Source of the DNA: Rhodospirillales bacterium
GTDB lineage: Bacteria; Pseudomonadota; Alphaproteobacteria; Rhodospirillales; Shumkoniaceae
DNA: 64,000 bases
Reading direction: 5' to 3'
NCBI GenBank assembly: GCA_028281785.1
Contig: JANQJG010000210.1
Span: 1 to 64,000, forward strand
The notes under the pieces are model-generated. The model was not told where the DNA came from. It worked only from the letters and a program-made list of their open reading frames with translations, and ran no database searches. How positions within the stretch are numbered: position 1 is the first letter of the stretch; each line of letters opens with the position of its first letter. Positions 118-11,444 of this stretch are shown in pieces. The translations under genes were made by a program, and so were the position numbers.

Positions 118-1422
118 CTATCCGCTCACCAATCTCAGCTCGCCGGCGGACCTCCCCGTCGGACGAGGCATTCCCTCGATCCGGCTGGATTCCTGGCGAA
201 TCCAGTCGATGCATCTCGCCAGGAATTTGAGCGTGACCGTGACCTCGCCGAACCCCGCATGCTCCTCGGGGTCCAGGGTCGTGACCAGCATGCGCCCCGC
301 GAAGTTCGCCTCGTCGACCATGATCACCGCGCCGCCCTGGCCGTCCGACAGCAGGGTCCGTTGCCCCTTCTGCGGCCAGTAAATCCCATGGAAATGCCAC
401 TTCATGTCGTCCAGGGTGATCCCCTGAAACAATGAATGATCGAGCTCCTCGATACGGAGCGGCTCGGTCTGCACCTTGCCCTTGTCCCAAGACCCCGGAT
501 CATCGGACCGATAGCAGATCTTCGGTCGGCGGTTCTCCCAGCGGCAATTCGGCAGCCAGGGAACCGTCATCTCGCCAAAGCTCACCAGGGTTCGGCCCTG
601 ATCGAGGAACTGCCGGATCCTCGGCTTGATCCGATGCAGGGTCTCCTGGTTGGATTCACGGGGTACGACAAGCACGTTGTATTTGAGAAGATCCGTCGTC
701 TCGATGACTCTCGTATGCACCAGCTCGAAGTCGTCCGCGTATTCCGGCTTCGTGAACAGGTCGTGGTGGAAGTGAAGGCCGCTGTAGACGACGCCGATCG
801 GCCGGCGCTCGCGCTGCGCGCGCAGGGCGGGCGCCTCCTCCTCGATCCAATTGAGGATGTTGTCCAGCGCCCGCGTCGCCCCTTCATCGCGCGAGAAGGT
901 GTGGCAGAAGACGTCGAACTGGCTGCCCGCCACGATGACTCCGCGGGTCGACACACGGTCCTCGTATAGGATGGCGTCTCCCCGACTGTTGCAAACCAGC
1001 ACCTGTGCCGTCGGAGGCGCGATCAGATGCCCGTGGCTGCACAGCCCGTTGATGCCCTTGTGCCAATGAAGGTCGTTCGACTCGACCCCGTCGAGGATGC
1101 GGTGGTCGAGCATCTTCTCCAGCTGCATGTCATCCTCTGGCGTGAACCCGCCATAGGTGCATCCCGGAAGCCAATCGCCCCAATAGTCGCCGAGCGCCAC
1201 GACGATGCCGGGCAGATCCAGGAACTCGGCGATCTGCCGGCGGCAGGTGGCCAACGCCACCTGATCGGTCGAGCGCGGCATGATCAGGGCGTCGTAGGCC
1301 GACAGGTCGGTCCTTGGCAGGTCATAGATGTCGATTACATCGAAGCGCCCTCGGAACAACTCCAGGTTGATCGCCTGATGCTGGTAGCTGATTCCCGAAT
1401 AGATAACTGCCGTTCTCGCCAT
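118..1422 (-). CDS. Tandem-duplicated class I glutamine-amidotransferase-like (ThuA-like) protein, function unknown
   Basis: The 434-aa protein has two homologous halves, about residues 1-198 and 208-412. Each half begins with a beta-strand and YSG motif (VIYSGISYQH, VVYSGLHFHH), followed by 'DALIMPR'/'NVLVVPR', then 'WLP', a WH-containing motif (WHKG at 119, WHFHG at 342) and a C-terminal 'F/IxDWI' helix. The fold signature is that of class I glutamine amidotransferase or ThuA-like domains, but the usual nucleophile elbow reads GDYWG or GEMTV, with no cysteine, so amidotransferase activity is unlikely. No signal peptide is seen, so it is probably cytoplasmic. A GAGAGA ribosome site precedes the ATG. 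It is the last gene of the metal-transport operon, 125 bp after the rcnA-like gene. The histidine-rich WHxHG motif could bind metal or a metal complex; that is inference. Confidence 0.75.
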   Translation of the reverse strand: MARTAVIYSGISYQHQAINLELFRGRFDVIDIYDLPRTDLSAYDALIMPRSTDQVALATCRRQIAEFLDLPGIVVALGDYWGDWLPGCTYGGFTPEDDMQLEKMLDHRILDGVESNDLHWHKGINGLCSHGHLIAPPTAQVLVCNSRGDAILYEDRVSTRGVIVAGSQFDVFCHTFSRDEGATRALDNILNWIEEEAPALRAQRERRPIGVVYSGLHFHHDLFTKPEYADDFELVHTRVIETTDLLKYNVLVVPRESNQETLHRIKPRIRQFLDQGRTLVSFGEMTVPWLPNCRWENRRPKICYRSDDPGSWDKGKVQTEPLRIEELDHSLFQGITLDDMKWHFHGIYWPQKGQRTLLSDGQGGAVIMVDEANFAGRMLVTTLDPEEHAGFGEVTVTLKFLARCIDWIRQESSRIEGMPRPTGRSAGELRLVSG

Positions 1423-1547
1423 TTCTCTCTCCCATGGTTTCGATAAGTGGTTCCGGAAACCACATAGTCTTCAAGTCCCGGGTCACAAATCGGGCTGCCA
1501 CCCCCTTACGTTCCACAACCCAGTTGGCGAAAGGAGTAGGTCCCTTT

Positions 1548-2354
1548 TCAAAGCGCGACGCCCTGCCGCGCGAGATGCAGCCAGCCGGACGCCATGATCG
1601 CAATCCCGATCAACATGATCAGAAATCCAGAAAGCCAGGGCGCCATCGTAAAAAGCGCGTCCAAGCGCGAGGTCCGCGCAGAGAGCGCGTTGAGGCCGAT
1701 CGCGGCGGCGCTGCCGGCCGCAACGAGCGTCACGGCCAGCCCGGCGCTGAAGGCGGCGACAAGCGTCGCGCCAAGCCCGACCTGACCGAGATTCACACAC
1801 AGGATCAGCACGGTGATCGCCGCCGGGCACGGAACGAGGCCGCCGGAGAGCCCGAAAAGGATGGTCTGTAGCGTCGTGGTTCTGCCTGAGTTCACCCGGG
1901 TATTGAGCGCCCTGGCATGTTTGAGGGTGTGGGCGTCAACGGCTCCATGCGCGTGATCATGCGCATGATTTGGGTGATGGTGGTGGCGGTCATGATCGTG
2001 ATGATTGTGCCAAGCCGTCGCATGCCGCGCCGCGACAAGGCGATGGAGACTGATTCCGACGATGATCACTCCAGACAAAATCATGAACCAGGGCTCGGCC
2101 TGATCACCGATCAGCGCATCACCATAGGAAAGCGCGAGCGCGACGAGCACCCAGATAATAATTGAGTGTGAAAAGGCGGCCGACACGCCGAGCAGAACGC
2201 CCTGGCCGACCGTGCCACGGATCGCGACGATGTAGGCAGCCATCATCGTCTTGCCGTGTCCAGGCTCTAGGCCGTGCAAACCGCCGAGCACCAGCGCCGT
2301 CCCCGCCAGAAGAAGCGGGTTCACCTGGCCCGTGGCAATCAGACTGGTCAACAT
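1548..2354 (-). CDS. Nickel/cobalt efflux permease, NicO/RcnA family
   Basis: This 268-aa inner-membrane protein has about six hydrophobic segments. Segment 1 carries the family motif GLHGLEPGHGK at about residues 25-35. A central cytoplasmic or periplasmic loop at about 111-146 contains 15 histidines in 36 residues, as in RcnA. A second conserved region, GGLVPCPAAITVL, follows the loop. RcnA-type proteins export Ni2+ and Co2+. An AAAAGGA ribosome site lies a few bases before the ATG. It sits between amidotransferase-like genes in an operon that also holds an ABC importer and a HupE-like permease, so the locus seems to combine uptake and export of nickel-like metal. I am confident of the family but not of the metal. 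Confidence 0.88.
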   Translation of the reverse strand: MLTSLIATGQVNPLLLAGTALVLGGLHGLEPGHGKTMMAAYIVAIRGTVGQGVLLGVSAAFSHSIIIWVLVALALSYGDALIGDQAEPWFMILSGVIIVGISLHRLVAARHATAWHNHHDHDRHHHHPNHAHDHAHGAVDAHTLKHARALNTRVNSGRTTTLQTILFGLSGGLVPCPAAITVLILCVNLGQVGLGATLVAAFSAGLAVTLVAAGSAAAIGLNALSARTSRLDALFTMAPWLSGFLIMLIGIAIMASGWLHLARQGVAL

Positions 2355-2461
2355 TCCTTTTCAAGTGCCTCGTTCAGTTTGCGGTCCCGACGTATGGTCG
2401 TCGACTGATTCCGCTATCGCCCGAGCGTACGCGTTTCGGGACAGATGCGTTGCGGCGGCGG

Positions 2462-3139
2462 TCACATCTTCCGCGCCTCGCGGGTGTCAACCCGGTTATC
2501 GGAAGCATCGGCCAAACATTCTCCGCCCCCCGGCGAGTGCCCCTTGAGCCACGATAGGAAACCCGAGAGAAACCGCGTTGTCGCGGGCATGAAATGCGAG
2601 CCGTGGTGGTAGCAAGGGTCGAGCGTCGTCGCGATCAGGCGGCCGGGCGCATGGCTTTCACGATCCTCGAACAAAAGGCATCGGCCCTCGCGCGTCTCGA
2701 TCAGGGATGTCTGGTTTTCCGTGAGCGTGAACCAGCCGTGCAGGTGCCAAGTTGCCGCTCCTTGGTCGATGTAGCGGAAAAGATCGTGTTCCCGATCCGC
2801 GAGGCGCACGCCGAGATCCGCCCCCTCCTCAAGCCACCACCAGAAGTTTGTCTCGACGGCGGTCATTCGCACGTCCGGCAGCCAGCCGTCCTGGAACGTC
2901 TCTCCCATCGCGACCAGGGTGCCGCCGCCGCGCCAGAACGCGATGAGTTGCGGGGCCAGAGGCGCGATCAGGTGCGCGTTGAGACGGCAGGGCACGAATA
3001 CAGCATCGAAGTCTTCCAGCCGGGCGAAGGGAAGGTCCCGCACATAAATCCGCTCGTCGAAATACCGCGCGAACGGCGCTTCGTTCAGGGTTCGGTTGTG
3101 GTAGTAGGTTCCGCCATCAATGGCGGCGAGCGTCGGCAT
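2462..3139 (-). CDS. ThuA-like/GATase1-like domain protein (single domain, WHxHG motif)
   Basis: The 225-aa protein is one copy of the domain that is doubled in the gene at 118-1422. It shares the 'FDAVFVP' strand, 'GGTLVAMGE...GWLP', the WHLHG motif at residues 131-135, 'LLFEDRES', 'LIATTLDP' and the C-terminal 'FLSWL' helix. The elbow position is GETFQ, without the catalytic cysteine of true glutamine amidotransferases. Its first 23 bases overlap the end of the upstream gene (3117-3743), which implies coupled translation. No signal peptide or membrane segment is visible. The function is unknown; the placement among metal transporters suggests a role in handling the metal or its ligand. Confidence 0.7.
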   Translation of the reverse strand: MPTLAAIDGGTYYHNRTLNEAPFARYFDERIYVRDLPFARLEDFDAVFVPCRLNAHLIAPLAPQLIAFWRGGGTLVAMGETFQDGWLPDVRMTAVETNFWWWLEEGADLGVRLADREHDLFRYIDQGAATWHLHGWFTLTENQTSLIETREGRCLLFEDRESHAPGRLIATTLDPCYHHGSHFMPATTRFLSGFLSWLKGHSPGGGECLADASDNRVDTREARKM

Positions 3140-3743
3140 CGGCCCCTCCGGAGAAATAGTCGAAAAAGCGTCTCACATTGCTGAGCCCGTCCGGGTCCGC
3201 GCTGACGAGGAAGGAGAACAGATCATTGCCCGCGTGAACCAACAGCTGTCCACCGCCGGGACGCTCCAAAAGCCAGTCAACCGGCCACCGTTCCGGTCCG
3301 AGACTATTTAGAACCAGCGCCCCGGCCGGCGGTGGGTTCATTCCGCGGGAGTAGAAGCCGGCGACACCCCGCTGAAAGGTTAGGTGATCGTCGGTCAGGC
3401 CGGCAAAGAGGGGATGCCCCGCCTCGCGATGGATGCGAAGGCTCTCCAGGCCGCGCTGTCCGGCCGGGACGTAGGGTGTCAGTTCCGGGAGGAATGGATG
3501 TGCCACATGCCCGTTGAAGATGATGGCACCGCCCGAGTTCAGATAGGCGTCGAGCCGATTGCTTTGTTCCGCGAGGTGGCGCTGGTCGGAATGCATCGTC
3601 AGCAGAACCGCGTCGTAGCGTGGGAGTTCCGCCCGGTCGAGCGCATACTGCTGGGCCACGTCAAAGCGATGGTCACGCAAGGCGCTCAAGAAACCCGGTG
3701 GCTTGGACGGCGTGTTCGTCAAGAAAAGAAAACGTCCCATCAT
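3117..3743 (-). CDS. Diverged ThuA-like/GATase1-like domain protein
   Basis: The 208-aa protein follows the HupE-like gene after only 3 bp. It has the same overall plan as its neighbour (initial strand RFLFLTN, 'YDAVLLTMHSDQR', 'GGAIIFNGHVAHPFLPE', C-terminal 'VRRFFDYF'), but the WHxHG motif is replaced by 'FQRGVAGFYSRG'. It is therefore the most diverged of the four domain copies and may have a partner rather than a ligand-binding role. No cysteine is present at the elbow. A second ATG three bases downstream (3740) is an alternative start. The assignment to the family rests on motif order and context. Confidence 0.6.
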   Translation of the reverse strand: MMGRFLFLTNTPSKPPGFLSALRDHRFDVAQQYALDRAELPRYDAVLLTMHSDQRHLAEQSNRLDAYLNSGGAIIFNGHVAHPFLPELTPYVPAGQRGLESLRIHREAGHPLFAGLTDDHLTFQRGVAGFYSRGMNPPPAGALVLNSLGPERWPVDWLLERPGGGQLLVHAGNDLFSFLVSADPDGLSNVRRFFDYFSGGADADARRH

Positions 3744-3746
3744 GGC

Positions 3747-5009
3747 TCAAATAGACCCCGTCAATATTCCCACCCGCTCCACCGCCCAGACACAGGCAAT
3801 GCCGATGGAGCCCGTGGCAACGGCCGCGCGCATGCCGATTGCAAACCTCCGGTTCGCCCTCTGCACCGCAAGGAGAAGGAACCAGGCGACCGAAACGATC
3901 AGAAGCTGGCCGATCTCCACTCCCACATTGAACGAGAGGAGCGACACCATCAGATTCGGCGCCTCCCGACCGAGAATGTTCGCGAGCACGAAGGAAAAAC
4001 CGAAGCCGTGGAGAAGGCCGATCGCGGTCGCGATCCAAAATCCCCGGCCCCAAGGCTTGCCGAAAAGGGCAATCAGTCCCGCGTAGACAATGGACGCCGC
4101 AATGGCGGTCTCGACCGCCGGCACAAACCAGCCGAAGGCCGGCGTTAGCCCGAGAAAGCCCGCGATCAGCGTCAGCGAGTGGCCGAGCGTGAAGCCGGTA
4201 ACGTTCCAGACCAGCACCCCGAAGGACGAGGCGGCCAATGTCAGGCAGAGGACAAAAAGCACGTGATCGAAGCCTTCGAGGATGTGCCAGATCCCCTCGG
4301 CGACGAAAGTCATGATGCTCCAGGTCAAGGATAGATCAAGTAGAACGCCTTCCTGCAACTGGCCGGCGACGGTCAACACGCGGATTTCCGGTCCATTGAA
4401 ATCGAGGATATGGTTGTCGATGAAGATATCCGGTGGCAGTTGGAGTTCGGGTAGGATGCTGGCGACAACGACATCGCCATACCCATCGACGTTCTCGATT
4501 CGTAAGGCGATATCGACCACCGCCTCGCCGACGAATGGGTTCGGATGGTCATCCGCGGCCATGTTCATCGCGGCCCGCGCGTCCTGCGGCGTCGCGAACG
4601 GGGGTGCCGTCCGCTCGGGATACACGCCAAAAGCGATCATGTCGGCGGGTTTTTCCCGACCGTTGACCGTGATTCGATATCCCCCGGCGACCCATTCGCC
4701 GAAGGCTGCAGTCTCCGCCGCGATGGCGTCTAGGTCGAGGCTATGGATCCACGCGCCGCCAGCGTTTTCCGCGAAAAGAAACGGCGCTTCGACCCGTGCG
4801 CCGGGATAGGCGCGTTCCGAAAGCTCACGGGAATAGATCAACGGCGCGGGGATTCGGAGGTAGAGATCCAAGCTATCCGCCGTCCGGTCCAGAATGATGA
4901 TCCGGTTCTTGCCGTTGGGCGTGAAATGGGCATGGGCCGTCGCTACGACGCCTGCGAGGGCCATCGCCGCGAGAAGAACAAAAATGATTTCGTGATATAC
5001 CGCTCTCAT
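3747..5009 (-). CDS. HupE/UreJ-type (HupE_UreJ_2) metal permease with N-terminal extracytoplasmic domain
   Basis: This is a 420-aa protein. An N-terminal signal or anchor segment ends in AHAHF, and a beta-rich region of about 200 residues follows. From about residue 235 there are six membrane segments with the family hallmarks 'EGFDHVLFVL', 'FTLGHSLTLIA', 'GLLHGFGFSFVL' and 'FNVGVEIGQL'. HupE/UreJ proteins are secondary nickel or cobalt permeases of hydrogenase and urease clusters. The histidine and acidic residues in these motifs are the presumed metal path. The start overlaps the stop of the fused ABC gene by 4 bp (ATGA), so the two are translationally coupled. No hydrogenase or urease genes occur in this window. 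Confidence 0.85.
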   Translation of the reverse strand: MRAVYHEIIFVLLAAMALAGVVATAHAHFTPNGKNRIIILDRTADSLDLYLRIPAPLIYSRELSERAYPGARVEAPFLFAENAGGAWIHSLDLDAIAAETAAFGEWVAGGYRITVNGREKPADMIAFGVYPERTAPPFATPQDARAAMNMAADDHPNPFVGEAVVDIALRIENVDGYGDVVVASILPELQLPPDIFIDNHILDFNGPEIRVLTVAGQLQEGVLLDLSLTWSIMTFVAEGIWHILEGFDHVLFVLCLTLAASSFGVLVWNVTGFTLGHSLTLIAGFLGLTPAFGWFVPAVETAIAASIVYAGLIALFGKPWGRGFWIATAIGLLHGFGFSFVLANILGREAPNLMVSLLSFNVGVEIGQLLIVSVAWFLLLAVQRANRRFAIGMRAAVATGSIGIACVWAVERVGILTGSI

Positions 5010-7540
5010 TCCGCCGCCTCCGGTTTCAGCTCGACTTGCGGAGGTGCAGACATGTTCTCCACCGCGGCGATCAGAGCTTGCGTGTAGGGATGCTTGGGCT
5101 GAAGGGCGACTTGGTCTGCCTCTCCCTCTTCGACGACCACGCCGCTTTGCATGACCATCAACCGGTCGCAGAAATGGCGGGCCATGACGATGTCATGGGT
5201 GATGAAGAGAAACGCGACATGCCGCTCAAGCCGCAGGGACTCCATCAGCTTCAAAACGTCCATTCGGATGGACTGATCGAGCATGGAGGTCGGTTCATCG
5301 GCAAGGATCAGCTTCGGATCGGTTACGATCGCACGGGCGAAGGCCACCCGTTGACGCTGCCCGCCGGAGAGTGAGGCCGCCCGGCGCGACAGGAAGCTCT
5401 CGTCGGACGGCAGGCGCACCGCCGCCAATGCATCCCTGATCCTGTTTGCCGTATCTCTGATGCCGTGGATGCGCAGGGGCTCCGCCACGATATCGCCGAC
5501 CCGCATCCTCGGACGAAGGGATTGGTAGGGGTCCTGAAAGACCATATGGATGGGGCGCCGCCGGTCGGCGGAGACCTCCCGGCCCATAAAGAGAACCTGC
5601 CCCGCATCCGGCGTGTACCGACCCAGAGCGACCCGTGCCGCGGTCGTCTTGCCGGAGCCCGAACCGCCGACAAGGCCCACGACCTCCCCGGGGCGGATCT
5701 GGAGCGACAGCCCGCTGACCGCGATCACCGGACGAGCGTTTCGGAGCTTGGCCGTCAACCCTTTGTTGAATGTCAGTGACACGTCCACGAGGTCCAGCAG
5801 CGGCGGGACGGACGGGGCGATTGTCGGGCGCGTCCACATCTTGGGGGCGTGTATGCTGGGCGTGCTGGCAAAAAGAGCACGGGTGTGCGGATGGTCGGCG
5901 AAATTTGCAAGCGCCTCCGGTTCGCCGGTTTCCACGATCTCCCCATCCTGCATGATCGCCAGTCGGTCCGCCGCGTGGGCGATCAGAGGCAGGTCGTGGG
6001 TCACGAACAGGATCGTCACGCCGAGCCGGCGTTGCAGGTCGCTCAGAAGCTCCATGATGCCAGCCTGCACAAGCACGTCGAGACCCGTTGTCGGTTCGTC
6101 CGCGATCAGCACGTCCGGCTGATTGGCGAGCGCGATGGCGATAACCGTGCGCTGGCGCATGCCGCCGGACAGCTCATGCGGGTAGGCGCCCATACGCCCC
6201 GGCGGCAGATCGACCATTTCCAGAAGCTCGACCGCGCGCTGGCGAGCGGCGGCGGGAGACGGATTCTGGTGTAGGCGCACCGCCTCGATCAGCTGCCGGC
6301 CGATCGTCATCACCGGATTGAGCGCGTTCATGGCGCTCTGCGGAATCAGGGCGATCCGTTTGCCCCGCAGCCGGGAAAAAGCATTGGGCGTGAGCGTCAG
6401 AAGGCTCGAGTCGCCGAGCATGATGCGGCCTCCAGTGACCCGCGCGGAAGGGGCCAGGAGACCCAGAACGGCCATGGCGAGCGTGGACTTGCCGGATCCC
6501 GACTCGCCGACAAGACCGAGGGTTTCGCCCTCTGCCAAGTTCAGCGACGCGCCTTGAACGGCCCTAAAATGTCCGGGACTGGTGTCATAGTCGATGGTCA
6601 GCTCGCGAATGGCGAGCTTCGCCTCGGGCGCGTCTGGCGCCTCGGCGGGCTCCATCCCGTCGGCGGTCGGTTGCGCGCGTTTTGAGGCATCCTCTCCGTC
6701 GCCCACGCCGTAACCGATCAACGCGAACGCGACGACGGACAGGGCGATCGCGAGCCCCGGCGGCAGAACCCACCAGACCCACGCATCGGTCAGAAACGCC
6801 GTCCGCGCATTGGCGTGGAAGAGGATCGCCCCCCAGCTCTTACGGATCGGATCGCCGAGGCCGAGGAAGCTCAAAGAGGACTCGATCAGGATCGCGTTGT
6901 GGGCGACCCGGATGAACTGCGGAGCGATCAGGGGGGTGAGTTCGGGCAGGATATGGCGCGTGGTGACCCGCCAGCCGCTTGCCCCCATCGCGCGCGCCGC
7001 TTCCACATATTCCGCCGCGCGCAGGGAAAGAGCTTGCGATCGTAGCTCCCGCACCGGGTGCGCCCACATCACAAGGGTGATCACCAAGACCTGCACCGGG
7101 AGCGAGGCCCCGAAGAAGGCGCCGAGCACGATGACCAGCGGAAGGAAGGGCAGCGACATCACCACGTCCACGACCCGCATGGCGATCTGATCGACGAGGC
7201 CGCCCCTGTAAGCGGCGACAACCGCCACAAGCGTCGCGACGATGGTGGTCAGAAGCGCGGTCACGATGCCGATGGAAAGCGAGATGCGCCCGCCAACGAG
7301 GATGCCCGTCAAAAGGTCCTGCCCCACGTCGTTGCAGCCGAGCGGATGGGCCGTGTTGGGTGTTTGAAACGGCGTGCAGATATGTTCCGTCGCTTCGTAG
7401 GGGCTTAGAAACGGACCGATCAGCACGGCCGTCCCCATCACCCCGATTACGACCAGGCCGGCGCGTTGTACCCGCCCGGCGACCGTATCCGGCGGCGCCA
7501 GAAACCGGCGAATCGGCGCCGATGCGGCTGCATCGCTCAT
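5006..7540 (-). CDS. Fused ABC importer: DppC-like permease + two DppD/DppF-like ATPases
   Basis: An 844-aa single chain joins three proteins that are normally separate. Residues 1-280 are a family-5-type permease with the EAA loop 'EAARAMGASGWRVTTRHI' at about 180. Residues 308-555 are an ATPase with Walker A GESGSGKST (345), signature LSGGMRQR (457) and Walker B IADEPTTGLD. Residues 580-830 are a second ATPase with Walker A GGSGSGKTT (625), signature LSGGQRQR (724) and ADEPTSMLD. All catalytic motifs are intact, so both sites should hydrolyse ATP. With the DppB-like permease and the binding protein just upstream it forms a complete peptide/nickel-class importer. It overlaps its neighbours by 4 bp on both sides. 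The fusion fixes the stoichiometry of permease to ATPases. The substrate is unknown, and nickel or a metal chelate is suggested by context. Confidence 0.9.
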   Translation of the reverse strand: MSDAAASAPIRRFLAPPDTVAGRVQRAGLVVIGVMGTAVLIGPFLSPYEATEHICTPFQTPNTAHPLGCNDVGQDLLTGILVGGRISLSIGIVTALLTTIVATLVAVVAAYRGGLVDQIAMRVVDVVMSLPFLPLVIVLGAFFGASLPVQVLVITLVMWAHPVRELRSQALSLRAAEYVEAARAMGASGWRVTTRHILPELTPLIAPQFIRVAHNAILIESSLSFLGLGDPIRKSWGAILFHANARTAFLTDAWVWWVLPPGLAIALSVVAFALIGYGVGDGEDASKRAQPTADGMEPAEAPDAPEAKLAIRELTIDYDTSPGHFRAVQGASLNLAEGETLGLVGESGSGKSTLAMAVLGLLAPSARVTGGRIMLGDSSLLTLTPNAFSRLRGKRIALIPQSAMNALNPVMTIGRQLIEAVRLHQNPSPAAARQRAVELLEMVDLPPGRMGAYPHELSGGMRQRTVIAIALANQPDVLIADEPTTGLDVLVQAGIMELLSDLQRRLGVTILFVTHDLPLIAHAADRLAIMQDGEIVETGEPEALANFADHPHTRALFASTPSIHAPKMWTRPTIAPSVPPLLDLVDVSLTFNKGLTAKLRNARPVIAVSGLSLQIRPGEVVGLVGGSGSGKTTAARVALGRYTPDAGQVLFMGREVSADRRRPIHMVFQDPYQSLRPRMRVGDIVAEPLRIHGIRDTANRIRDALAAVRLPSDESFLSRRAASLSGGQRQRVAFARAIVTDPKLILADEPTSMLDQSIRMDVLKLMESLRLERHVAFLFITHDIVMARHFCDRLMVMQSGVVVEEGEADQVALQPKHPYTQALIAAVENMSAPPQVELKPEAAE

Positions 7541-8505
7541 GTCCGTCGCACCCTGGGGTCGAGCAACGGATAGCCCAGATCGGCGATCAGGTTGGCCAGA
7601 ACCACCCCGAGCGTGGCAAGCACGAACACGCCTTGCAACAGGTTGTAGTCACGGGCCTCCACCCCTTCGAGGATCAGCGTCCCGATTCCGGGGTAACTGA
7701 AGACCGTCTCGATCACCAGCGCGCCGCCGACCAGATTGCCGATGCCGATCATCACATTGGTGTAGATCGGCAAAAGCGCGTTTCGGAACGCGTGGCGAAA
7801 GAAAACCTGGTGCTCGGGCACTCCCTTGGCCCGAGCGAAGGTGATGTAGTCCTGACCAAGCGCGATCGACATGGCCGAGCGCGCCGTCAACAGGATGCTG
7901 GCCGTCTGAACGATGGCAAGGGCGGTCACCGGCATGATCAGGCGCTCCGCCACACCCAGGATGTACTCACCGCTTCCGGGAATCGCCCCGAGGGGCGCTG
8001 CGCCGAAGGATGGAAGCCAGCCGAGCTCCGCCGATAAGAGGGTGATCAACAGCATGGCGACCCAGAACACCGGCGCGGAACCGATGAAGAGCACCACCAC
8101 CAGCGAGGAAAGATCGAACCGGCCCCCACGCCACCATGCGGCGAGGATACCCAGCGCCGTTCCGATTGCGGCGCTCAGCGCCAACGCCCATCCCATCAGC
8201 AGAAGCGTCCACGGCAGCCGGGCCAGCACGATTTCCGAGACCGGCTCGCCAAACCTGACGGATGTTCCGAGATCGCCCCGGAAGACGCCGGTGACATAGG
8301 CCGTGAATTGCACCAGCAGCGGCTTGTCGAGGCCGAACTCCCGCAGAACCTCGGCCTCTTGCGCCGCCGTCATGTTCGCCAGCACATCCTCGGTGAGCAT
8401 GTAGTTCAGCGGGTCGCCTGGCGCGATCCGCGGTAGCGCGAAGTTGAGCGTTAGCGCTACCGCGAATACCGCCAGATACTGGCTGACAATCCTAAAGTAA
8501 ACCAT
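7537..8505 (-). CDS. ABC transporter permease, DppB/NikB-like
   Basis: This 322-aa inner-membrane protein has a typical family-5 permease layout: an N-terminal membrane segment, 'GDPLNYMLTEDVL' and 'FRGDLGTSVRFGEPV', then five segments and the EAA-type motif 'ARAKGVPEHQVFFRHAFRN'. It pairs with the permease half of the fused protein encoded by the next gene, whose start overlaps its stop by 4 bp. It lies 26 bp after the binding-protein gene, without a strong ribosome site. The family imports di/oligopeptides, nickel complexes or glutathione. The substrate cannot be decided from this subunit. Confidence 0.9.
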   Translation of the reverse strand: MVYFRIVSQYLAVFAVALTLNFALPRIAPGDPLNYMLTEDVLANMTAAQEAEVLREFGLDKPLLVQFTAYVTGVFRGDLGTSVRFGEPVSEIVLARLPWTLLLMGWALALSAAIGTALGILAAWWRGGRFDLSSLVVVLFIGSAPVFWVAMLLITLLSAELGWLPSFGAAPLGAIPGSGEYILGVAERLIMPVTALAIVQTASILLTARSAMSIALGQDYITFARAKGVPEHQVFFRHAFRNALLPIYTNVMIGIGNLVGGALVIETVFSYPGIGTLILEGVEARDYNLLQGVFVLATLGVVLANLIADLGYPLLDPRVRRT

Positions 8506-8531
8506 GCGAACACGGCGTCGGGGTCACCCAG

Positions 8532-10226
8532 CTAGTTTGTGAGAAGCGGATCGACCGTGTCGCCACGGAGGGTATCCGGCAAGAACGAATACTTGTGGAA
8601 GACGCCATAGCCGGCCGACGGCGCATAGTTGTCGTAGGACTGCCAGCGATAGGCAAAGACGGTTTCCGGGTACCAGAGCATGACCCGCGTCGGATAGCGC
8701 GTCTGGTACTCCTGCAGCTCATAGCTGACCTGCAAGCGTTTCTCGCGCGTGTCCGCCTCGTGCCAGCGCTCCACGATCTCCGCTTTTTCCTCGTCAAAAA
8801 TCATTTCGCGGTTTTTGTCGCCCCGGTAGAGGATGATCAGCATGTCCTGATCGGCGATACCGTGCGGGGTGATGTCGGCGATGCGAAGATCGAACTCGCG
8901 CGTACGCCACAATGCACTCATGGACCCCGGATCGATGGTCTCCACCCGGGTCTTGATTCCGACGGCCGCGAACTGCTCGACCAGCATCTCGCCGGCGCGC
9001 AGGAACAACGGCTGATTCGACGCGACCTTCAGGCTCCAGCTCATGGGCTTTCCGTCCGGCGTTTCGCGGAAACCATCGCCGTCCGTATCGACGTAGCCAC
9101 GCTCGTCGAGGATCGCCTTCGCCTTTTCCGGATCGTGGGGCGCGCTCAGGTCGGGCTTGGTCCAGAAGCTGTCCACATGGGGCCAGCCATGCTTGCCGGA
9201 TTTGCCCTGGCCGAGCATGACGCGCTCCAGCAACGGCTCGGGGTTGACGGCGAGCGTCACCGCGTTGCGGAGCTCGCGGTCGTCAAACGGTTTGCGGCTG
9301 ACATTGATATCCAGCCAGGCGCCCCACAGAGTAGGCGAGCTGACCAACTCCAGATCGTCGTCGTTTTTCCATTGCAGCACGAGTTCCGGCGGAACGGGAC
9401 GCGCGGCGCCGTCAATCTCGCCGGTCTTGAGCGCCGTGAACATGGTCTGCGGATCTTTGATCATCACCAGGTTCAAGCGCTTCACCACGGGCGCGCCGCG
9501 CCAGTAGTCCTCATTTGCCTCGAACTTGTAGAACTGATCGGCCTTGTAATCGACGATCCGGTAGGGTCCGGTGCCAATCCCCAGATCGGTGAAGGAGCGG
9601 GGGTCCTCTACCCCTTGCCACTGCGCCTTCTGGATGATCGGGAGGTCGGCCGCGGTGACGCGGTCGAAATTGGGCATCGGCATCTCGGATGTCAGGCGCA
9701 CCGTCAGACGGTCGATCACCTCGATCCCCACCATCCGCGGCACCGCGGAGGCATGGTGGGTCCAACGGTTGGCCGGCCCCTCGCGGTAGTACTCGAACGT
9801 GAAAGCCACGTCTTCGGCCGTGAAATCGGTGCCGTCATGCCATTTGACACCATCGCGAAGCTTGATTTCCCAAACCCTGGCGTCGTCGCTGATCTGGGTG
9901 ACGGAGGTGGCGAGCCAGTCCTCCGCCTTGCCCACATAGGGGGAAGGCTCGCGCAGCTTGTCGAAAACCAGCCACAGCACCCAGTCGTTCCAGGAGTTCC
10001 CGATGGTGTAGGTGGTGACGTTGCCCGCGCCGCTCCACATCGCGAGGGTCAGCTCCTCCGCGCTCTTGGGACCCTGATTGTCGGTCGCGCTCAGGAATTT
10101 TGCCGGCGGCACCGAAGCGCCGGATACCCCCGCTCCGGGGCTTTGTCCCGACGCTGTGGTGGAAATGAGCGCGATACCGGAGGTAAGGACCAGCGCCTTC
10201 CCCATACGTCGGATTAGCTGTCGCAT
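8532..10226 (-). CDS. ABC transporter substrate-binding protein, family 5 (SBP_bac_5)
   Basis: This 564-aa exported protein has a signal peptide at about residues 1-27, ending in 'TTASGQ'. The body shows family-5 signatures: 'WEIKLRDGVKWHDGTDFTAE', 'DVAFTFEYY', 'LGIGTGPYRIVDYK', 'FDDRELRNAVTLAVN' and 'AKAILDERGY'. It would capture the ligand in the periplasm for the permeases encoded next. It is the first gene of the operon, preceded by an AGGGG ribosome site and by a promoter/palindrome about 120 bp upstream. Family 5 includes peptide, nickel (NikA) and nickelophore (CntA) binders. The HupE and RcnA neighbours make a nickel or cobalt ligand the leading guess, but no metal-site residue can be assigned by eye. 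Confidence 0.88.
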   Translation of the reverse strand: MRQLIRRMGKALVLTSGIALISTTASGQSPGAGVSGASVPPAKFLSATDNQGPKSAEELTLAMWSGAGNVTTYTIGNSWNDWVLWLVFDKLREPSPYVGKAEDWLATSVTQISDDARVWEIKLRDGVKWHDGTDFTAEDVAFTFEYYREGPANRWTHHASAVPRMVGIEVIDRLTVRLTSEMPMPNFDRVTAADLPIIQKAQWQGVEDPRSFTDLGIGTGPYRIVDYKADQFYKFEANEDYWRGAPVVKRLNLVMIKDPQTMFTALKTGEIDGAARPVPPELVLQWKNDDDLELVSSPTLWGAWLDINVSRKPFDDRELRNAVTLAVNPEPLLERVMLGQGKSGKHGWPHVDSFWTKPDLSAPHDPEKAKAILDERGYVDTDGDGFRETPDGKPMSWSLKVASNQPLFLRAGEMLVEQFAAVGIKTRVETIDPGSMSALWRTREFDLRIADITPHGIADQDMLIILYRGDKNREMIFDEEKAEIVERWHEADTREKRLQVSYELQEYQTRYPTRVMLWYPETVFAYRWQSYDNYAPSAGYGVFHKYSFLPDTLRGDTVDPLLTN

Positions 10227-10335
10227 AGCAGAATTCCCCTGTTTGATGTTCCGTCCATCGCGGATGCCCTCGAATGCGTCGCAGCTTCCCGGGAACAGTG
10301 TTTACGGCCATCCAAAAACGCGAATGCGAGTCATC

Positions 10336-10374
10336 GTCATTCGCCATTGAATGACAGTCCGAGGCGCCCGTCAA
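10336..10374 (-). promoter_or_regulatory. Candidate promoter with overlapping palindromic operator for the metal-transport operon
   Basis: On the minus strand a TTGACG (10374-10369) is followed after 17 bp by TTCAAT (10351-10346), a plausible sigma-70 promoter. The -10 lies inside a perfect palindrome GTCATTC-6-GAATGAC (10336-10355). A second arm pair CGAATG/CATTCG (10321-10326, 10338-10343) overlaps it. The position, about 110-150 bp before the binding-protein ATG, suits repressor binding. No regulator is encoded beside it. Confidence 0.45.
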
Positions 10375-10517: not shown

Positions 10518-11444
10518 TTAACCCGCCCTGCGATGGGACCGGAGGGTCTCCGAAACGTCGGCTTCGGAGCGGCGCGTCCAGACGTCCGCAAGGCGTCCCT
10601 GGAACGGCCCCTGGCTCTCGATGTTGAGGCTTGCCGCGACAGCGGCGAAACGGCCGCATTCCAGCGGGTCGTCACAGTCGCGCCGACGGGACATGTAGGC
10701 CGCCAGATAGGTGTCGCCGCAGCCGGTCGTATCGACGACTTCGCGCGGCGGCAGCGCTTCGATCTCGGTGACCTGGTCGCCGAAGGCGACCATTGATCCG
10801 CGGCTCGCCTTGGTCACGATGACCTCCGCGACACCCCGCCGCCGGATTTCCAGCAGCCCTTCGTGAACAGACGGTTCGCCGGAAAACGCCGCCATTTCCT
10901 GGTCGTCCGCCTGAAGCACATCGACCCCGGGAAGGACCTCATCGGTACCCGCCCGCAGGCTCGGCACGATCCGATGGTCCGTCACCTTTCGGGTCCACCC
11001 TTGAGCGTCGACGGCCAGGATGTCGGCCCGCGCGGCGCAATGACCGATCACCTCGAGATCGACATCGTTGTGGGAAAGCGGCCCGATATGGAAGACGCGG
11101 GCGCGAATCGGCGGAACGTCCTCCACCCGGATCGGCTCGGCCAAGCTATCGACACTTTGCGTTCGAATATCCGGGTTGTCGGCGGCATAGTCGTTGTGAA
11201 ACGTCGATGACGTGGCCGACGGCGAATTGAAAACCTGGATCCCGGCCGCGCGAAGCGACCCGAGGAGAACGTCTTCGTCTTCGCGCGCGACTCGTGTCAC
11301 CACGGCGCAGCGCAAGCCGAGCGCCCGGTAGACCCGGGTTGAGTAGTACGCGGTTCCGCCGGGCGTCGGGACCTGGCGAAGGCCCCCAACCAAGTTGATG
11401 TCACGCACGACATGGCCCACGACGCAAACGTCGAATTGCTCCAC
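10518..11444 (-). CDS. PfkB-family carbohydrate kinase
   Basis: This is a 308-aa cytoplasmic sugar-kinase-fold protein. The PfkB signature 2, DTTGCGDTYLAAYM, lies at about residues 238-251 with the catalytic aspartate of GCGD. An early 'VVGHVVRDINLVGG' strand and 'PTPGGTAYYST' form the substrate side. It would phosphorylate a sugar or nucleoside hydroxyl with ATP. The start is GTG, with AGAGGGG upstream; no in-frame ATG gives a better N-terminus. It is 291 bp from the binding-protein gene and 124 bp from the cyclase gene, so it is probably its own unit. The physiological substrate cannot be named. Confidence 0.85.
   Translation of the reverse strand: MEQFDVCVVGHVVRDINLVGGLRQVPTPGGTAYYSTRVYRALGLRCAVVTRVAREDEDVLLGSLRAAGIQVFNSPSATSSTFHNDYAADNPDIRTQSVDSLAEPIRVEDVPPIRARVFHIGPLSHNDVDLEVIGHCAARADILAVDAQGWTRKVTDHRIVPSLRAGTDEVLPGVDVLQADDQEMAAFSGEPSVHEGLLEIRRRGVAEVIVTKASRGSMVAFGDQVTEIEALPPREVVDTTGCGDTYLAAYMSRRRDCDDPLECGRFAAVAASLNIESQGPFQGRLADVWTRRSEADVSETLRSHRRAG

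Follow-up and report, generated by a model that had tools for sequence, protein, structure and literature searches.

What is carried by an operon that combines an ABC importer of family 5, a HupE-type permease and an RcnA-type exporter with four copies of a domain that belongs to no described family, and what do the proteins built from that domain contribute? The operon occupies positions 118-10226 of the window, a stretch of 64,000 nucleotides from a Rhodospirillales bacterium, and all eight collinear minus-strand open reading frames listed in a preliminary description of this DNA were confirmed at their places. The first gene encodes a periplasmic binding protein of family 5 (8532-10226, 564 aa; SBP_bac_5, PF00496, 268.9 bits), followed by an inner-membrane permease of the OppB/NikB type (7537-8505, 322 aa; PF00528, BPD_transp_1, 138.1 bits) and a triple fusion of an OppC-type permease with two ATPases (5006-7540, 844 aa; PF00528 at 103-278, two PF00005 ABC_tran domains and oligo_HPY). 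The same joining of OppC-type permease and both ATPases in one polypeptide is seen in HupE-type relatives. Next come a permease of the HupE/UreJ-2 family (3747-5009, 420 aa; PF13795), a 208-residue protein that we call a (3117-3743), which reaches no family cut-off and is recognised by profiles built from its relatives, and a 225-residue protein that we call b (2462-3139), which has no Pfam match and is defined by its predicted fold and its conserved residues. The last two genes encode an exporter of the NicO/RcnA nickel-cobalt type with a histidine-rich loop (1548-2354, 268 aa) and a 434-residue protein (118-1422) that the profiles match in the order a-b. The four domain copies are therefore two a+b pairs, one as separate genes and one as a strongly diverged fusion.

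The genes are tightly packed, with two overlaps of exactly 4 bp (7537-7540 and 5006-5009) and a third of 23 bp (3117-3139). Neither of the two wider gaps, 107 bp ahead of the RcnA gene and 125 bp ahead of the last one, contains a promoter-like match, and it is thus plausible that the eight genes form one transcript. The contig (C192) starts at window base 1, and the operon is visible only down to position 118. A PfkB-family kinase gene lies closely upstream on the same strand (10518-11444); it was considered as a further member and rejected, being absent beside a and b at all other loci, and the presence of a comparable gene next to STM3548 in Salmonella (PMC13432705) is probably a coincidence.

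The families of the importer, the HupE permease and the RcnA exporter were all assigned above their cut-offs, in agreement with the earlier view of a transport operon linked to metals. The HupE protein scores 117.4 bits against HupE_UreJ_2 (PF13795; gathering score 24.5) and contains the HX5DH motif as HILEGFDH, although it differs from the family in its long N-terminal region; a second HupE copy is encoded elsewhere in the same genome, on contig C179. The exporter scores 235.6 bits against the RcnA subfamily NF007454 (cut-off 195) and 64.1 bits against NicO, and is a predicted nickel/cobalt exporter. Earlier work on marine alphaproteobacteria had already drawn attention to HupE genes next to ABC importers (PMC4771312). 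The binding protein falls under every NCBIfam equivalog cut-off including those of NikA and Opp4A (124.5 bits against the NikA equivalog TIGR02294, cut-off 393), and its relatives in the PDB are a mixture of peptide, nickel, haem and sugar binders; its sequence does not assign it a ligand. The OppB/NikB-type permease likewise scores 254 bits against Opp2B, below the cut-off of 350. The closest known systems are the NikABCDE and CntABCDF importers of metals and metallophores, with which the window operon has in common a family-5 binding protein, Opp-type permeases and ATPases. It differs from them in that its binding protein is no equivalog by the NCBIfam cut-offs, in carrying a permease and both ATPases in one protein, and in the addition of HupE, RcnA and the a/b proteins.

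These transporters invite an account in terms of nickel and cobalt homeostasis, in which the ABC importer and HupE would take up nickel, as such or as a chelate, for use by the cell's hydrogenases, RcnA would export the excess, and a and b would be chaperones for nickel or its ligand. The clear HupE_UreJ_2 match and the RcnA score above its curated cut-off speak for such an account, as do two [NiFe] hydrogenase large subunits encoded in the same genome, both with the RICGIC and DPCxxCxxH motifs; the failure of the binding protein to reach the NikA cut-off speaks against it.

None of the four domain copies reaches a Pfam or NCBIfam cut-off, and the copies are related to one another, with the fused protein 26-30% identical to the two single proteins and a and b homologous by profile comparison (hhalign probability 99.5, E 2.6e-23); the claim of an undescribed domain present four times in three genes is borne out. 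Domain a scores 20.4 bits against DUF4159 (PF13709) and 13.1 bits against ThuA (PF06283), short of the gathering scores of 25.9 and 33.4, and b and the fusion are unmatched by ThuA. The window's fused protein has an end branch of 2.41 in the b tree, indicating strong divergence. An AlphaFold2 model of b computed from 58 sequences has a mean pLDDT of 91.7; the model of the fused a-b protein, from five sequences, is poor (pLDDT 64). The nearest solved structures to the b model are 2gk3 (STM3548, Z 15.7) and 3soz (STM1381, Z 15.6), which superpose with an rmsd of 2.7 across 181 residues; further down the ranking come domains from other class-I amidotransferases, ThuA-like proteins and beta-galactosidases, which have this fold too. 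Similarity to many members of the class-I-glutamine-amidotransferase-like fold (Z 12-15.7, rmsd about 2.7-4 over 165-190 residues) places b within it, and a search of the PDB found no sequence relative. While b has its fold in common with glutamine amidotransferases and ThuA-like proteins such as 2gk3, 3soz and 1t0b (Z up to 15.7), it is only about 8-16% identical to them, has no conserved cysteine at the nucleophile position, and has conserved WHxHG and LDPxxHxG motifs of its own.

Seven residues of b (W101, W102, H132, H134, D174, P175 and H178) are invariant among 67 sequences. In an amidotransferase the nucleophilic cysteine would be expected after the strand that spans 74-77 in b; b has G79-E80 there, with Glu at position 80 in 52 of the 67, and the catalytic cysteine of the Cys-His-Glu triad of class I glutamine amidotransferases is absent. 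The only conserved cysteine is C51 (82% of the 67 sequences), which is present in the window's protein at 2462-3139, and the domain a consensus has none; the description of these proteins as amidotransferase-like and cysteine-less is therefore right about the fold and the missing nucleophile, and too broad in that b conserves C51 elsewhere. From the order of the residues and the secondary structure we infer that D174, H178, H132 and H134 together sit where the active site used to be. The His/Trp/Asp set is retained by every sequence or almost every one, which suggests that it binds a ligand or metal and is not just a surface for contact with another protein. No signal peptide is visible by eye in a or b, and the two probably act as a heterodimer.

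With each species represented by a single genome, scanning confirmed 296 relatives of b, of which 80 were kept. They occur in alpha-, beta- and gammaproteobacteria, in Paenibacillus and in haloarchaea, and single metagenome-assembled matches in Campylobacterota and Bacteroidota may be misbinned. Among culturable non-pathogens, Rhizobium johnstonii 3841 and a Thalassospira carry the pair with a FecBCD or SBP_5 importer. In a sample drawn evenly from its class the domain is rare, being present in 7 of 385 genomes including that of the window, and it was not found in four searched relatives from the window's family, which suggests horizontal spread. The loci compared below were chosen by similarity to b and include related species that are not independent; the contig scan used a narrower b alignment, the first being too divergent, a choice that favours loci from this branch. 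No published description of the a/b pair was found in the literature searched.

Genes a and b are adjacent or fused, and an ABC importer is encoded nearby at 83 of 93 loci. The importers are of four kinds, FecBCD (47 loci), SBP_5/Opp (26), SsuABC (4) and Fbp (1), with five loci mixed. Several of the ten loci that lack an importer are on short contigs; at five loci (L038, L039, L041, L085 and L091) the contigs are long enough to show one and the pair has no recognised importer within several kilobases. The b tree requires ten or more switches in importer type for FecBCD, and well-supported branches force six of these, indicating that the a/b pair has been re-coupled repeatedly. About half of the loci also contain a gene, here called c, whose product is weakly FmdE-like (PF02663 just below the cut-off or unreported). 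HupE is found near a and b at only seven loci by one count and nine by another, all of the SBP_5 type (the window, L026, L027, L029, L034, L035, L036, L047 and L083), and RcnA lies within an a/b operon in the window alone among the loci examined. An apparent second RcnA association in Thalassospira was rejected, since the NicO gene there belongs to a zinc-type ZnuA-DUF1007-NicO cluster (L061:11704-14531) with an unrelated gene in between. The factor common to the a/b loci is thus ABC import and not HupE or RcnA. The preliminary description had suggested a link to nickel or cobalt, and had itself named conserved operons with the ABC and amidotransferase-like genes without HupE and RcnA as the observation that would speak against this. 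Most of the 83 loci are of exactly that kind, and with HupE in a minority, RcnA in the window operon only and the NikA cut-off missed, nickel/cobalt is one variant reading and not the rule for the family.

Regulatory sites point towards iron. Two Paenibacillus operons of the arrangement c-a-b-SBP_5-OppB-OppC-ABC have a perfect Fur core, TGATAATCATTATCA, upstream. Matches to TGATAATNATTATCA with three or fewer mismatches occur in 21 of about 110 upstream regions, ranking first against 129 permuted palindromes, the next best of which has 17 (and contains the TGA-N9-TCA frame), the one after it 10, and the median 2. TGA-N9-TCA with an A/T-rich centre is the frame common to Fur boxes and the rhizobial IRO box; it is present in 22 of 70 upstream regions (10 of 46 for FecBCD and 12 of 24 for SBP_5), with 0-2 for permuted half-sites. 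The matches span many genera, and neighbouring relatives among them are not independent. At the level of the family an iron-type (Fur/RirA) operator is therefore enriched, yet it is absent in some relatives. Consensus sites for NikR, Zur, Mur and MntR upstream of a/b loci are close to the shuffled background.

Gene content and expression data agree with this. A siderophore reductase (SIP) gene lies beside the c-SBP_5-HupE operon L047, feoB lies beside another HupE-type operon (L027), and siderophore synthetases and TonB receptors are encoded near the loci in Methylocystis and Methylosinus; IucA/IucC genes likewise stand near some of the loci. In Aliivibrio salmonicida, the importer beside a fused b-a gene on plasmid pVSAL320 is up-regulated under iron limitation, 2.4-fold for the binding protein VSAL_p320_27 and 1.7-fold for the ATPase VSAL_p320_29 (PMC4324432), these tags being matched to the genes beside the fusion through annotation and plasmid; an earlier description of the same importer has it dependent on iron and probably under the control of Fur (PMC2627896). 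The usual metal across the a/b family is most likely iron, with the reservation that iron regulation of a locus is no proof that its ligand carries iron.

The window's own promoter is different. No good Fur-type site is found upstream of the operon, the best match to TGATAATNATTATCA having five mismatches. A repeat search found a pair of inverted repeats, GCGAATG-N11-CATTCGC and GTCATTC-N6-GAATGAC, that overlap each other ahead of the binding-protein gene (10320-10355) and form a candidate operator. The second was considered as the mark of a single regulon and rejected, since it is exact only here and its remaining matches across the genome deviate at two positions. There is no RcnR-type match within the operon. 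No Rfam riboswitch is found in the window at the gathering score, none upstream of the operon at E up to 1, and no relevant one at 12 related loci; control by a cobalamin or nickel/cobalt riboswitch was accordingly rejected. The genome encodes only one TonB receptor, which also tells against iron here. With RcnA and HupE in the operon, two [NiFe] hydrogenases in the genome and no clear iron box at the promoter, nickel is possible for the window itself. As an explanation of the operon and of a and b together, nickel/cobalt homeostasis is nonetheless unlikely, because most a/b relatives have neither HupE nor RcnA, relatives, HupE-type loci included, are accompanied by sites of the Fur/IRO type and by genes for siderophores or iron, and neither an enrichment of NikR-type sites nor an RcnR-type site is seen.

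The operon is best read as a variant of ABC metallophore import whose accessory a/b pair is uncharacterised. We consider the chances evenly balanced that it encodes an ABC importer of a metal chelate, with a and b handling the chelate inside the cell and iron as the usual metal of the family. The binding protein, permeases and fused ATPases would carry a metal with a small organic carrier, a metallophore or other chelate, into the cytoplasm. There the a/b pair, cysteine-less at the nucleophile position and probably a heterodimer that is fused in some relatives, would bind the imported complex and aid release of the metal or processing of the carrier. HupE and RcnA would then move the free divalent metal, with RcnA most simply serving as a safety valve against nickel or cobalt that enters with the same ligand. 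In FecBCD siderophore importers, cytoplasmic release factors (SIP, FhuF or esterases) are often found in the position that a and b take; like these, a and b occur mostly with FecBCD and partly with TonB receptors and iron-type sites, but they are of an unrelated fold and family and also serve SBP_5, SsuABC and Fbp importers. To our knowledge, the release of metals from imported carriers is understood for few chemistries only, such as reduction of the SIP/FhuF kind and cleavage by esterases. An unannotated pair that accompanies several unrelated importers, with iron-type control in several lineages, is a direct candidate for a step of release or processing that has not been described before, and its function would account for hundreds of hypothetical proteins. 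More tentatively, a and b may define a new type of protein that handles metallophores in the cytoplasm: an amidotransferase-fold heterodimer lacking the cysteine, which uses a His/Asp/Trp site to strip metal from imported chelates or to cleave them, and which through repeated re-coupling has come to serve no fewer than four unrelated ABC families in Bacteria and haloarchaea.

A catabolic role, in which a and b would cleave or isomerise imported chelators or anions (siderophores, aminopolycarboxylates, phosphonates or sulfonates) as sources of carbon, nitrogen or phosphorus, appears distinctly improbable, since the loci show no consistent catabolic genes and several lineages have iron-type sites. 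Its attractions are that hydrolases exist within the class-I-amidotransferase/ThuA fold, that Chelatococcus and Chelativorans both carry a/b loci, that some of the importers (SsuABC) have no fixed metal role, and that phnG and phnH stand beside FecBCD and c at two loci. At these loci, in Labrenzia (L022:15812-17956) and Stutzerimonas (L089:13588-15331), a LysR gene, a fused a-b gene, FecBCD and c are followed by C-P lyase phnG/phnH, which together make up a phosphonate island that includes an importer of the FecBCD type. Together with the SsuABC-type importers, such neighbours suggest that some members of the family import other organic anions. That a and b are instead regulatory or stabilising cytoplasmic partners, binding the ligand or the ATPase and tuning transport, would suit a pair that swaps among unrelated importers while staying adjacent and has no catalytic cysteine, but is hardly probable given the conserved His/Trp/Asp residues that suggest a ligand or metal site and the lack of an obvious docking surface common to unrelated importers.

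Several further arrangements were seen among the loci. In a Sulfurovum metagenome-assembled genome, an operon with SBP_5, c and HupE has a DUF364/DUF4213 gene annotated as 'putative heavy-metal chelation' after a and b (L083:10669-11700). Three loci have the fused gene in the order b-a and not a-b (L020:11923-13212, L021:12016-13296 and L018:6879-8159), and with both orders in existence the fusion must have arisen at least twice. Finally, two contigs of the same genome (C237 and C166) have tandem FmdE-like c-c genes beside ABC importers and no a or b, in one case an SBP_5 importer with an LCM-type methyltransferase (L136:629-7064) and in the other FecBCD (L137:7283-11328), showing that the FmdE-like domain has an importer association of its own.
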